From: Thermococcus sp. AM4
GTDB taxonomy: Archaea; Methanobacteriota_B; Thermococci; Thermococcales; Thermococcaceae
Reading direction: 5' to 3'
Length of the DNA: 64,000 nucleotides
Assembly: GCF_000151205.2 (NCBI RefSeq)
Contig: NC_016051.1
Span: forward strand, 930,001-994,000
In this document: positions 9,954 to 15,575 of the stretch, piece after piece
Layout of the letters: each line of letters opens with the position of its first letter
Position numbering within the stretch: position 1 is the stretch's first letter
Notes under the pieces: model-generated
Told to the model about the DNA's origin: nothing
What the model saw: only the letters and a program-made list of their open reading frames with translations
Databases searched by the model: none
Translations under genes and position numbers: made by a program

Positions 9954-10712
9954 TCAAGAAACGTTAAGCCATGAGAACTCGCGCTCCAGCAACTTCAGCT
10001 CCCTCTCATCGAAGGTCCTGGGGTCGAGGATGAGAACAAGCAGGGCTTTCTTGGAGAGGACGTTGTCCTTCAGGCTGGTGAGGAACTTGAAGACCGTTTC
10101 AAATCCGTTCTCCAGGATCAGGTACTCAACGCCCTCAAGGATCACGGCGGTGCTCTCGTCGGTTCGCTCTATCAGGTAGTGCATAAGCGGGGCAAGTCGG
10201 GTCGGCTCAATCCTGTTCTCTCCGCCCACCTTTGTGATCCACAGGGTTGGGATGCCGAACTCGTTGAACCTCTCGGCGTTTCTCGCAACGGCCAGCAACT
10301 TCCAGCCGCCCAGGAGCTGGAGAAGACGCTGAAGGGGTATCGAAGCGTTGAAGAGATACCCACCGGATCTAAGTACTTTGGTCCCCTCGAAGACCTTGCT
10401 CGGAACGGATTTAAGCCTGAGCTTCCCGTAGATCGGCCGAACCGTTACCAGAATCCAGGCCAGGCCAACGGCCACGAGAACGTCGTCGAAGACCTTCATG
10501 AACTCAGTTGTGATGATATCGTTGAGGACGTTGACGAGGTAGCCGGACCAGAATATCAAGAACCCGACCATCATGTTGTTGATCTCCCTCTCACCGAGAC
10601 TCGCACCGAGCCTCTTCCGTATCCTCATCGCCATTACAACCGTGATCGTCAGCACTGAAAACGCGATTACCTCTGCGAGAAGCTTGATGTGCGCATAGCT
10701 CACTGTCCCCAT
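9954..10712 (-). CDS. membrane protein with DUF835 domain
   Basis: A 252-residue protein. Three hydrophobic segments occupy the first 95 residues (AEVIAFSVLTITVVMAM; MMVGFLIFWSGYLVNVLNDI; VLVAVGLAWILVTV). The cytosolic C-terminal part matches DUF835: LLAVARNAERFNEFGIPTLWITK, STAVILEGVEYLILENGFETVFKFLTSL and ALLVLILDPRTF. DUF835 resembles the P-loop-like signalling domains of bacterial and archaeal sensors, but no nucleotide loop is visible. The function is unknown, possibly signalling. A TATA box (CTTTTAAAG on the minus strand, plus coordinates 10732-10740) lies about 25 bp before the ATG, so the mRNA is probably leaderless. Confidence 0.75.
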   Translation of the reverse strand: MGTVSYAHIKLLAEVIAFSVLTITVVMAMRIRKRLGASLGEREINNMMVGFLIFWSGYLVNVLNDIITTEFMKVFDDVLVAVGLAWILVTVRPIYGKLRLKSVPSKVFEGTKVLRSGGYLFNASIPLQRLLQLLGGWKLLAVARNAERFNEFGIPTLWITKVGGENRIEPTRLAPLMHYLIERTDESTAVILEGVEYLILENGFETVFKFLTSLKDNVLSKKALLVLILDPRTFDERELKLLEREFSWLNVS

Positions 10713-11612: not shown

Positions 11613-12372
<760 letters not shown>

Positions 12373-12408: not shown

Positions 12409-12825
12409 TCAGTCCTTTTTAAAGTTTAGGTAGTACCTGACCTTCTCCTCAACGGACGAGTAGTCCCTCTCCCCCATCCCCAGCTTTTCCCTGAGCCTCT
12501 TGTTCTGGGCGATCATGGCGGAGACCTGTATCGCGAGGTTCTGGTTGTCAAGGGCAACGTAGTAGGTCTTGAACTTCAGGGGCGACCAGAGACCTTCGAG
12601 GCTGTAGAGCCTGCGCTCCAGATCGTCAAGCTTCCGCTGTAACCCCTCGATATCCCCTTCGGTAGCGGATCCTTCAATGAAATCTCCCATCAACAGGATC
12701 TTGAGGGCATCCTCCACGCGGAAACCGTATCTTTTGGCGAGCGCTTCAATCCGGGCGTAGACGTCATCATCCAGTTCCAGCCTAAGTCTCCTGAACCTTC
12801 CCGCTCGAACCGTCACCCTTACCAT
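12409..12825 (-). CDS. putative ribbon-helix-helix plus coiled-coil protein
   Basis: A 138-residue protein from the ATG at 12825 (MVRVTVRAGRFRRLRLELDD). Residues 1-50 look like a ribbon-helix-helix DNA-binding unit: a basic beta strand, then DDDVYARIEALAKRYGF and VEDALKILLM. A coiled coil follows (GDIEGLQRKLDDLERRLYSL) and then a helical tail (NLAIQVSAMIAQNKRLREKL). It overlaps the preceding gene by 44 bp. It might regulate this operon or organise DNA; neither is shown. No homologue is known to me by name. Confidence 0.65.
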   Translation of the reverse strand: MVRVTVRAGRFRRLRLELDDDVYARIEALAKRYGFRVEDALKILLMGDFIEGSATEGDIEGLQRKLDDLERRLYSLEGLWSPLKFKTYYVALDNQNLAIQVSAMIAQNKRLREKLGMGERDYSSVEEKVRYYLNFKKD

Positions 12826-13129
12826 CGAGCATCGCCTCAAGCTTTCTGTTCTCCTCACTGAGCTCGGCCCTCACCTTCTTGAGGAAGGCCCTGTCCTCCT
12901 TCGCGGTTTTCTCGAACTCAACCAGCGAGCGGTAGTGGGCCTCCATCTCCCGAAGCTTTTTCTCAACTTCGTCGACCCGCTCCGTTAGGTACCTGAACCT
13001 CAGCTCCCGGAGGGTAATCTCAAGCCTCTCAAGATCGGCGTCCGGATCGAGGGGCCGCCTCCTGAGCCTCTCCTTTATCCGGGCGAACTCCTCCGGACTG
13101 ACCTCAAGTTCTATCTCTCCTCCAGACAA
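12782..13129 (-). CDS. coiled-coil protein of unknown function
   Basis: A 115-residue, highly charged protein that is almost all helix. The heptad-like stretch LTERVDEVEKKLREMEAHYR and AELSEENRKLEAMLDG predict a coiled coil. The N-terminus MSGGEIELEVSPEEFARIKE resembles small adaptor proteins. It overlaps the upstream Cys/His-rich gene by 26 bp and the downstream gene by 44 bp, so it belongs to one translationally coupled set. No function can be assigned. Confidence 0.65.
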   Translation of the reverse strand: MSGGEIELEVSPEEFARIKERLRRRPLDPDADLERLEITLRELRFRYLTERVDEVEKKLREMEAHYRSLVEFEKTAKEDRAFLKKVRAELSEENRKLEAMLDGKGDGSSGKVQET

Positions 13130-13796
13130 AACCTATTACCCCCCTCTTCTTTCCCCGGGGCTTTAATGGGAGGGGAAGCCCCTTAAGGGCCTCCACCGTG
13201 CCTCTAACTGCCCTGATTTCCTCATCGCTCGGCCGCTCCTCCGACCGGTAGTCAAACTTCTCGATAAAGCTAGTTATGAGCCCATGAAGTTTCTCAAGCT
13301 TTTTGATCTGGACCGTCCGAAGGCGCTCCTTTAGATGGGGGTCCTCGATCAGCTCGGCGATCATTGAGTAATGCCTCCTGCAGAGCACCGCACTGGAATT
13401 CTCGTACTCGTCCAGCAGCTCCTCCAGCCTCTCCGCGAAGGACTCCACGAGTATTCTCTCCTTCTCCTCAAGGAGGGAACAGAGGTAGCACTCCCCCTCA
13501 TGGAAAGTGGAGTTCTCCTCCAGCGTCGAGATGTACGTTCTGAGCATGTCCTCGTAAATGGTCGCTACGCCCAAACCCCCGTAGAGCGGGTTGGAATGTG
13601 CTACCTCGAAGAGCTTCCACGCGTGGTAAGGACAGAGCCCCAGGCTTTCTCTGAACTTCCGTCTCAAGGAGGGATCGTTGACGCCCTCGTACAGGATGTT
13701 CTCAATGACGCCGCGCTCGAATTTATCGAGGCCTCTGCAAACCGGGCAGCCATACCCTCGAAGGCCCTCACGGAGGTGCAACCCTATCAGATCCAT
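13104..13796 (-). CDS. Cys/His-rich putative metal-binding protein (DUF6062-like)
   Basis: A 230-residue protein from the ATG at 13796 after GGTGGT; the longer frame to 14069 is a shadow of the upstream gene. It has two similar Cys/His modules: GCPVCRGLDKFE with GLCPYHAWKL (about residues 15-70), and GECYLCSLLEEKE with VLCRRHYSMI (about 108-155). Each pairs a CxxC knuckle with a CxxxH or CxxH, so two metal sites, probably zinc or Fe-S, are likely. The pattern recalls DUF6062 proteins. The function is unknown. It lies 13 bp after the prenyltransferase-like gene and overlaps the next gene. Confidence 0.7.
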   Translation of the reverse strand: MDLIGLHLREGLRGYGCPVCRGLDKFERGVIENILYEGVNDPSLRRKFRESLGLCPYHAWKLFEVAHSNPLYGGLGVATIYEDMLRTYISTLEENSTFHEGECYLCSLLEEKERILVESFAERLEELLDEYENSSAVLCRRHYSMIAELIEDPHLKERLRTVQIKKLEKLHGLITSFIEKFDYRSEERPSDEEIRAVRGTVEALKGLPLPLKPRGKKRGVIGFVWRRDRT

Positions 13797-13809
13797 GACC
13801 ACCACGTTG

Positions 13810-14676
13810 CTAGAGGTACCTTGCCATTGAATCGAGCACTGCCAGCGCGCGGTAGGTGTTCTGGAAGTTCGAGATTCCCAGCTCAAGGCTCCTCCTGAAG
13901 CCACCGTTGGGATTCTGGAGCTGGCGGATAAACCATATGTGCCTCCTCGGGCAGGTGGGAGTCTCGTTCTGAAGCTCAAGGCCCCTCGTGGCGTAGAAGG
14001 TCGGCTCAAGGTACGGTGGAAGGCTGTATGGCACCTCGGTGAAGCCACCCCAGTCGCCGCAGAGCTCACAGTTCCTGAAGTGCGGACTCTTGGGCGGGCG
14101 GTAGCCGAGGGTGTAGAGGGTAAAGAGCGCCTGGTAGGTCATGGTCGTGGTCGGTTGCTTGACGCCGTAACCGTTTCCGTTCCTAAAGCGCATCACGAAG
14201 GCCCTAATCGCGTCCTTTTCCGCAGAGTCGAACTTCAGGCCGATCTGATCGAACGCCTTGGTAACCCAGTAGGTGGCTTCGAGCGGGGTCGCCGTCCCGA
14301 ACTCCTCGCTTCCCCCTAGTCCAACGGCGAACTTGCCTTCTGTGGGGTTGTACTTGGTGAACACTATGTCGCTCTTCTCCCTCGCGAGGTCCCTGGCTCC
14401 AAGGAGGGCGAGGCCCTCGAGTGCCATCGCTATTGCCACCACCGCAGTCTGGGGCTGGATTGCATTGCTCAGGAACTCTATGGTCATCTCGGGTTCCGGG
14501 AACTCCACATTCAGAAGCCTGTGTATCTTGACCGCGTAGTAGGTGTCGTTCACGTTGGTGTCGTCGAGGACGCTAACGAAGCAGTAGCCGCCATCCTCGT
14601 GGCGCCTCTCCTTAACGTAGCGTAAGACGGCATCAACGTCAACGTAACGTCCGAGTTCGTACAGCTTCGAGCCCAT
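13810..14676 (-). CDS. prenyltransferase/squalene cyclase-repeat-like protein
   Basis: A 288-residue soluble protein from the ATG at 14676, which has a strong AAGGAGG site; the upstream extension to 14757 is rejected. It has repeated Gly-aromatic motifs typical of the alpha/alpha-toroid of protein prenyltransferase beta subunits and squalene cyclases: HEDGGYCFV, NGNGYGVKQPTTTMTYQALF, DWGGFTEVP and NPNGGFRRSLE, each followed by helix pairs such as DTYYAVKIHRLL. A CELC pair sits before DWGG. The zinc ligand set of true prenyltransferases (D, C, H) is not plainly present, so catalysis is uncertain; a binding or scaffold role is possible. It is the first gene of a minus-strand run reaching to fluC-DUF190. 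Confidence 0.7.
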   Translation of the reverse strand: MGSKLYELGRYVDVDAVLRYVKERRHEDGGYCFVSVLDDTNVNDTYYAVKIHRLLNVEFPEPEMTIEFLSNAIQPQTAVVAIAMALEGLALLGARDLAREKSDIVFTKYNPTEGKFAVGLGGSEEFGTATPLEATYWVTKAFDQIGLKFDSAEKDAIRAFVMRFRNGNGYGVKQPTTTMTYQALFTLYTLGYRPPKSPHFRNCELCGDWGGFTEVPYSLPPYLEPTFYATRGLELQNETPTCPRRHIWFIRQLQNPNGGFRRSLELGISNFQNTYRALAVLDSMARYL

Positions 14677-14849
14677 TCTACCGCCTCCTTCCGTGGTAGA
14701 ACAGGCGTCATCAGCCCGAGCGGGCGGTTCGGGCTCGAAGCCCCGGGCGGACGCCATCGCCCGTCCCCCTATTGGAGGGTCGCTTAAAAACGTTTTCGTT
14801 CGACCCTCAACGTTAAAAGGATCGGGGGAGAACCTGAGGGGGATGCATC

Positions 14850-15575
14850 ATGGTAACGTTCGTTCCCTTCGGCGAAAAACCAAACAGAGAAGGCGTGGAG
14901 TACGCGAGAAAACTCCTGCTGAGGGAGGGGCTCATCGATGACGCCAGGATTGTGGAAGCCAGAAACGTTGAGGGGCTCGCGAGGGAGGTTCAGCCGGATT
15001 GCTGCTACATCGTGGGGGAGCACCTCGCCACCTACGGGATCGCAACGAAACTCAAACCTTCTTCAATCCTGAGCCTGGACGCCCACACCGACCTCATGCA
15101 CGATTACCTCGACCACGGTTCGTGGCTGGCCTACGCCCTTGAAAACGGGATCGTGAACAGGGCCGCCGTTGTTGGGGCCGTGCTGATGATACCGACGACG
15201 AACAGAACCCGGCTGTGGAGGAGAAGGGTGCGGATTTACCCGGCCCTCCCGAGAACGCGGAAAACCGGGCGGGGATGGAGGGCGTACGTAAACCTCACCA
15301 ACCACGGAGTTGACGGAGTGCTCGACGACGCCCTCAGGTACCTCGGAGAGGAGATATACCTGACGATAGATCTCGACGTCCTGAGGCCGGAATACCGGAT
15401 AGCGAGGTTTCAGCACGGGGAGCTAACACTGGAGGAGCTCCTGGAGCTGATTGAGGGCATCAAGGAACGCTTTAAGGTGGTTGCCTTTGATCTAGCCGAG
15501 ATCTCCGACAGGATAAAGAGGTCAAAGCCGGGCAAAAAAGCCCTCGTTGAGGTGTTCTCCGCGCTGAGGTGGTGA
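14850..15575 (+). CDS. arginase/agmatinase-fold (ureohydrolase-like) protein
   Basis: A 241-residue protein related to the ureohydrolase superfamily (arginase, agmatinase, formiminoglutamase). Metal-ligand motifs are partly visible: VGEHLATYG in place of GGDH, ILSLDAHTDLMHDY for DAHxD, and IYLTIDLDVLRPEY for DxDxxDP. It is about 50-60 residues shorter than normal agmatinases, and the first His motif and the DP are altered. Either the substrate differs or catalysis is lost. It is the first gene of an overlapping three-gene set with a zinc-ribbon and a winged-helix protein. GAGGGGGATG precedes the ATG. Confidence 0.75.
   Translation: MVTFVPFGEKPNREGVEYARKLLLREGLIDDARIVEARNVEGLAREVQPDCCYIVGEHLATYGIATKLKPSSILSLDAHTDLMHDYLDHGSWLAYALENGIVNRAAVVGAVLMIPTTNRTRLWRRRVRIYPALPRTRKTGRGWRAYVNLTNHGVDGVLDDALRYLGEEIYLTIDLDVLRPEYRIARFQHGELTLEELLELIEGIKERFKVVAFDLAEISDRIKRSKPGKKALVEVFSALRW

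Follow-up and report, generated by a model that had tools for sequence, protein, structure and literature searches.

What do four genes of unassigned function do directly upstream of a fluoride channel gene in Thermococcus sp. AM4? The analyzed stretch of this genome (64,000 nt, positions 930,001 to 994,000 of contig NC_016051.1; “the window” below) carries them at the head of a six-gene run on the minus strand (Table 1). They encode a soluble α/α-toroid protein (TOR), a Cys/His protein (DUF6062), a charged coiled-coil protein (CC), and an RHH-like protein, and are followed by the genes for FluC/CrcB and DUF190. TOR and DUF6062 are separated by 13 bp, DUF6062 and CC overlap by 26 bp, CC and RHH by 44 bp, and FluC comes 36 bp after RHH, just as a preliminary description of the locus had reported. 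On the opposite flank, an arginase-family gene (14850 to 15575, plus strand) runs divergently from the operon. Pfam searches place TOR in Prenyltrans (PF00432; 1.7e-10), the Cys/His protein in PF19538 (1.9e-14; 54.1 bits versus a cut-off of 27), FluC in CRCB (PF02537; 6e-29; 100.8 bits versus a cut-off of 32.9), and DUF190 in PF02641 (2e-39) with a further P-II match (6e-6); FluC also scores 88.1 bits against TIGR00494, above the cut-off of 80.45. For CC and the RHH-like protein, these searches return no confident family.

The answer begins in the TOR leader, where a fluoride riboswitch (14770 to 14695) had gone unnoticed in the preliminary description. The 3′ end of its aptamer lies 18 nt before the TOR ATG, on the same strand, and the predicted TATA-like box upstream suggests that the aptamer begins at or near the 5′ end of the transcript; a similar T-rich/TTTAA box precedes the aptamer in most leaders. 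The pseudoknot carries a TA-to-CG change in 7 of 71 leaders, and across 37 leaders P1, P2, and the pseudoknot are 99.4% paired, with both-side changes that exceed nearly all shuffles. Score, pairing, and covariation identify the element as an RF01734 fluoride riboswitch, for which switching by Mg-fluoride is predicted. With this riboswitch in their leader, the four unassigned genes would form the first half of an operon that responds to fluoride.

Table 1. Features of the operon and its leader (window coordinates) and of the small protein next to the second riboswitch (coordinates of the loci named)
Feature	Positions	Strand	Remarks
TOR (soluble α/α-toroid protein)	13810..14676	-	288 aa from ATG; operon gene 1
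DUF6062 Cys/His protein	13104..13796	-	230 aa; PF19538 match
CC (charged coiled-coil protein)	12782..13129	-	TTG start; alignment
RHH-like protein	12409..12825	-	138 aa from ATG; alignment
FluC/CrcB fluoride channel	12001..12372	-	ATG at 12372; PF02537, TIGR00494
DUF190 (COG1993, PII-like)	11613..11996	-	PF02641, 2e-39
Fluoride riboswitch aptamer (RF01734, crcB motif)	14695..14770	-	Rfam 51.9 bits, E 1.3e-12, gathering 34
TATA-like box GTTTTTAAG	14783..14791	-	Read from sequence; predicted; 13-21 nt upstream of aptamer
5′ pseudoknot strand GGCGTC	14750..14755	-	Pairs with 14704-14709 in 71/71 leaders scored
3′ pseudoknot strand GACGCC	14704..14709	-	With next base, CGCCT (14703-14707), alternative Shine-Dalgarno partner
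Shine-Dalgarno core AGGCG	14682..14686	-	Same AGGCG in 59/71 leaders
Aptamer linker insert GCTTCGAGCCC	14731..14741	-	Complementary over 11 nt to TOR start region 14664-14674
Start-region “lock” GGGCTCGAAGC	14664..14674	-	G of ATG through first base of codon 5
Small protein like the RHH C-terminal domain	L115 1658-1900 (reversed locus); L118 1714-1941; L031 1205-1447		Just upstream of second riboswitch

Comparison across Thermococcales shows to which gene this riboswitch belongs. Of 94 genomes, 90 contain a TOR ortholog and 88 the riboswitch; in all 88, coordinates place the aptamer directly upstream of TOR. The two exceptions among the 90 TOR-bearing genomes are G012, which has kept no more of the aptamer than a 3′ remnant, and G080, in which no aptamer was found, TOR is broken, and FluC is retained. 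In the G012 leader (L084, 1440 to 1502), the 5′ part of the aptamer is gone and the 3′ pseudoknot and anti-Shine-Dalgarno part is retained. TOR is absent from the 21 genomes searched that belong to the same phylum outside Thermococcales; a scan of the genome collection returned only Thermococcales or Thermococci records because its seeds were order specific.

FluC lies downstream in 65 of the 76 operons that we extracted and scanned with iterated profiles. FluC-DUF190 is relocated away from TOR in the sampled Pyrococcus-type genomes, and in the five sampled genomes with FluC-DUF190 elsewhere, those loci have no riboswitch and TOR keeps its aptamer. G012 and G054 yielded neither FluC nor DUF190, and in G011, which lacks DUF190, the FluC match covers only 30 residues (all three genomes are about 99% complete); TOR is intact in all three, and the aptamer is kept in G054 and G011. 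The next downstream gene in G054 resembles, by eye, the window gene at 9954 to 10712, beyond DUF190, an order consistent with deletion of FluC-DUF190. Since FluC has moved or been lost while the aptamer stayed at TOR, these gene arrangements show that the riboswitch is more faithful to TOR than to FluC across the order. The same placement had been reported in 2014 in the transcriptome of T. kodakarensis, where crcB RNA was “surprisingly” found before TK0513, which is orthologous to TOR by position, and not before crcB (PMC4247193). The riboswitch and this report answer the earlier statement that no described system matches the gene set. In T. kodakarensis, a transcription start site lies between TK0513 and TK0514 (crcB) (PMC4247193), which suggests that FluC also has its own promoter.

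The genes between TOR and FluC are far from constant. The full six-gene set is found in 43 of the 76 operons, in some cases with a second RHH-like gene, and TOR-FluC-DUF190 alone in at least 16, TOR being broken in two of these. Pyrococcus-type genomes have a TOR-CC-RHH arrangement, and the remaining operons contain intermediate gene sets with a partial cassette, some of them without DUF6062. Small remnants of DUF6062 and RHH in the L043 operon indicate that the cassette is subject to decay and was lost more than once. DUF6062 matches are present in 55 of the 94 genomes, always at the TOR locus; together with the 90 TOR orthologs, this argues that the gene order is not due to chance, and the conservation of that order, including linkage to FluC-DUF190, bears out the preliminary description within Thermococcales. 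In several genomes (loci L047, L049, L050, L054, L056, L061, and L062), TOR/RHH and FluC are separated by an opposite-strand gene of about 429 aa; by eye, it resembles a Na+/H+ antiporter, and in L061 it is split by a transposase-like ORF.

How might the riboswitch control TOR? None of the 71 leaders has a T-run longer than 3 between the aptamer and the TOR start; an intrinsic transcription terminator is accordingly rejected as the expression platform, and control is probably translational. All five positions of CGCCT pair with the Shine-Dalgarno sequence in 69 of the 71 leaders, perfectly in 59, because the latter reads AGGCG there. This is not the form usual in the window, where the commonest Shine-Dalgarno form elsewhere is AGGTG; of 37 window ORFs, 12 have TG after GAGG and 1 has CG. 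The insert GCTTCGAGCCC and the start ATGGGCTCGAAGC are complementary over at least 10 nt in 51 of 72 leaders, a length reached in 1 of 3600 shuffle controls, and folding of the window leader pairs the insert with the start codons.

The start of TOR is constrained accordingly at the codon level in its first few codons: synonymous variation is absent at codons 2 and 4, 68 of 71 leaders use TCG as codon 3, and codons 2 to 4 are among the four lowest of the 151 scorable TOR codons (mean 1.36 bits). Codon 5, which apart from its first base lies outside the lock, shows normal synonymous variation (1.61 bits), and TCG is absent or rare at 3 of 5 other conserved TOR serines checked. The start codons have diverged in L048 and L082, which have no insert, and in L069, where the insert is strongly diverged. 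However, the start ATGGGCTCGAAG is kept in L053, L065, L079, and L081, whose inserts have diverged, and in G012, which has lost the 5′ aptamer; moreover, in the covariation test, the OFF helices varied on one side at a time, to G-U, with no double (compensatory) change. For these reasons, the masking of the start codons by the insert is something that we infer, if with good motivation.

The pairings described above show that the TOR leader is able to form two mutually exclusive folds, and the leader sequences probably support a translational ON switch. When fluoride is absent, the 3′ pseudoknot strand CGCCU would base-pair with AGGCG of the Shine-Dalgarno sequence, and the start codons GGGCUCGAAGC would do so with the aptamer insert GCUUCGAGCCC; with both masked, TOR would not be translated. 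Binding of Mg-fluoride would close the pseudoknot and free the Shine-Dalgarno sequence and the start codons, so that TOR and the overlapping downstream genes would be produced, and FluC would then export fluoride.

The fold of TOR, recognized as a toroid in the preliminary description, is supported by the Pfam match and by an AF2 model with pLDDT of 90.9. Foldseek gives as its best PDB matches RabGGTase/FTase beta and squalene-hopene or meroterpenoid cyclases (E about 2e-5), with TM scores of 0.6 to 0.7. The near-invariant loop GLGGSEEFG (residues 119 to 127) lies within the lowest-confidence segment of the model (118 to 128) and might be placed as a flexible lid would be. TOR would bind a ligand or partner via invariant polar residues, those of this loop included. 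From its FluC-independent retention, we guess that TOR acts as a separate effector of fluoride stress that does not depend on FluC.

The two-module Cys/His architecture noted earlier for the second protein is upheld by its PF19538 match and by two CxxC...CxxH modules (C17, C20, C55, and H58; C103, C106, C139, and H142), whose eight ligands are invariant in 30 orthologs. The model is all-helical (pLDDT 88.8), and neither sequence nor fold searches against PDB gave anything significant. A plasmid search for DUF6062 yielded one match, in Thermomicrobium roseum (L184), where the gene adjoins HEAT-MoxR-DUF58-DUF4129 genes. The RHH-like protein combines an RHH-like N-terminus with a conserved C-terminal coiled-coil domain (DNQNL...AENKRLR). 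Its earlier assignment to RHH is plausible, and NikR and ParG are among the weak matches of a PDB search, but the RHH_1 model matches only 2 of 20 members, and weakly (best E of 4e-4). CC and RHH seem to belong together as a separate pair: elsewhere in the genome, a second, paralogous CC/RHH pair, its members adjacent or nearly so (within about 1.4 kb), is present in nearly all of the 41 Thermococcus genomes sampled, and one genome encodes CC and RHH as a single-ORF fusion. In one such second pair (L194; G000:C1:576115-577828), a nucleotidyltransferase gene (PF01909) lies between CC and RHH. Homology of CC and RHH to each other is not claimed (hhalign probability of 12%). We propose that the Zn-type DUF6062 protein and the CC-RHH pair form an accessory module beside TOR.

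A second riboswitch match is found in 15 genomes. According to Pfam, it precedes a membrane hydrogenase or formate-hydrogenlyase-like cluster in the five readable loci (L031 and L115 to L118), an association already known (PMC2864571). There, the start CCCGGAA has its complement in an upstream strand, TTCCGGG, an arrangement reminiscent of the TOR start lock. At L031, L115, and L118, a protein of 75 to 80 aa that resembles the C-terminal domain of RHH is encoded just before the riboswitch (Table 1).

Taken together, we consider it likely, from comparison of sequences, that the unit is a fluoride-response operon of the form riboswitch-TOR-[DUF6062-CC-RHH]-FluC-DUF190, with a translational switch and TOR as an effector; the regulatory part of this model is well supported. 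More tentative, and somewhat doubtful to us, is the stronger reading that TOR, with or without the cassette, is a new kind of FluC-independent fluoride-resistance or -sensing effector and the primary riboswitch target in Thermococcales, double-locked by pairing between aptamer and start codon. The preliminary description had suggested a complex and considered a lipid- or modification-related role with a DNA-binding partner conceivable. An obligate complex of all four proteins would explain the tight gene overlaps and the restriction of DUF6062 in Thermococcales to the TOR locus, but the operons in which TOR stands alone with FluC-DUF190 or lacks DUF6062, the remnants in L043, and the paralogous pair formed by CC-RHH make it very improbable; at least 16 of the 76 operons do without the cassette, which speaks directly against a single four-protein unit. 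The part of that proposal concerning lipids or modification returns in the idea that TOR is an active protein prenyltransferase or class II cyclase remodeling isoprenoid lipids to lower HF entry. Archaeal membranes are isoprenoid, and the best structural matches of TOR are enzymes of just these kinds. However, the zinc site of FTase/GGTase is D-x-C ... H, and among 30 TOR orthologs no D-x-C zinc motif is conserved, C32 being the only invariant Cys; the DxDD of class II terpene cyclases has no counterpart either, as SDVDD of 7xq4 aligns with TNIND. With these signatures missing, we regard an enzymatic role of this type as quite improbable.

Two further explanations concern what TOR does in the operon. 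TOR and the cassette could be regulatory, sensing metabolites of fluoride stress and controlling FluC/DUF190 or the hydrogenase cluster at the second riboswitch. The RHH-like domain of the cassette, the PII-like nature of DUF190, and the small protein just before the second riboswitch would fit such a role, but the RHH assignment is weak and TOR persists in G012 without FluC and the cassette, so that we find this rather unlikely, if worth keeping in mind. TOR might also be a housekeeping protein whose gene merely happened to separate the riboswitch from FluC in an ancestral operon, as its survival in G012 without riboswitch or FluC could suggest. Against this, the riboswitch stayed with TOR where FluC moved or was lost, and the leader sequence is fitted to the start of TOR; a housekeeping role is thus improbable, and the fluoride-response operon remains the reading that we prefer.

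Microbial fluoride defense is mostly explained by export, through FluC or CLC-F, and by extra copies of inhibited enzymes. Throughout this archaeal order, the fluoride sensor keeps more closely to an uncharacterized protein than to the exporter. The outcome is a short list of genes that are candidates for the fluoride response and a specific model, accessible to mutation, for translation control by an archaeal riboswitch, in an order in which T. kodakarensis offers genetics.

As a kind of system, the fluoride-riboswitch operon is already known, and Speed et al. 2018, as cited in PMC9855744 and PMC11549558, provides an archaeal example of a fluoride riboswitch. The literature searched does not name DUF6062, mentions TK0513 in a single paper, and describes neither the order-wide riboswitch-TOR pattern nor the cassette or the start-lock model; to judge from it, the close association of the riboswitch with TOR across the order, the accessory genes, and the start lock proposed here are all new. 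The window protein shares with DUF6062 (PF19538) the family match and the two Cys/His modules, whereas the relative on the Thermomicrobium roseum plasmid sits beside MoxR/DUF58 genes and not in a fluoride operon. TOR has the α/α-toroid fold in common with RabGGTase/FTase beta and class II terpene cyclases but, in contrast to these, is a single small soluble domain without the conserved zinc-ligand motif or DxDD. As in TK0513-TK0514 of T. kodakarensis, with crcB RNA upstream of TK0513 and crcB (TK0514) next (PMC4247193), TOR follows the riboswitch, but the window operon has three extra genes between TOR and FluC; that paper presents the placement as a surprise and leaves TK0513 uncharacterized. 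With crcB RNA (RF01734) operons, it shares the aptamer, its position in the 5′ UTR, and FluC among the controlled genes; here, however, the first and most faithful target is the uncharacterized toroid TOR, and the proposed control acts at the Shine-Dalgarno sequence and start codons rather than through an intrinsic terminator.
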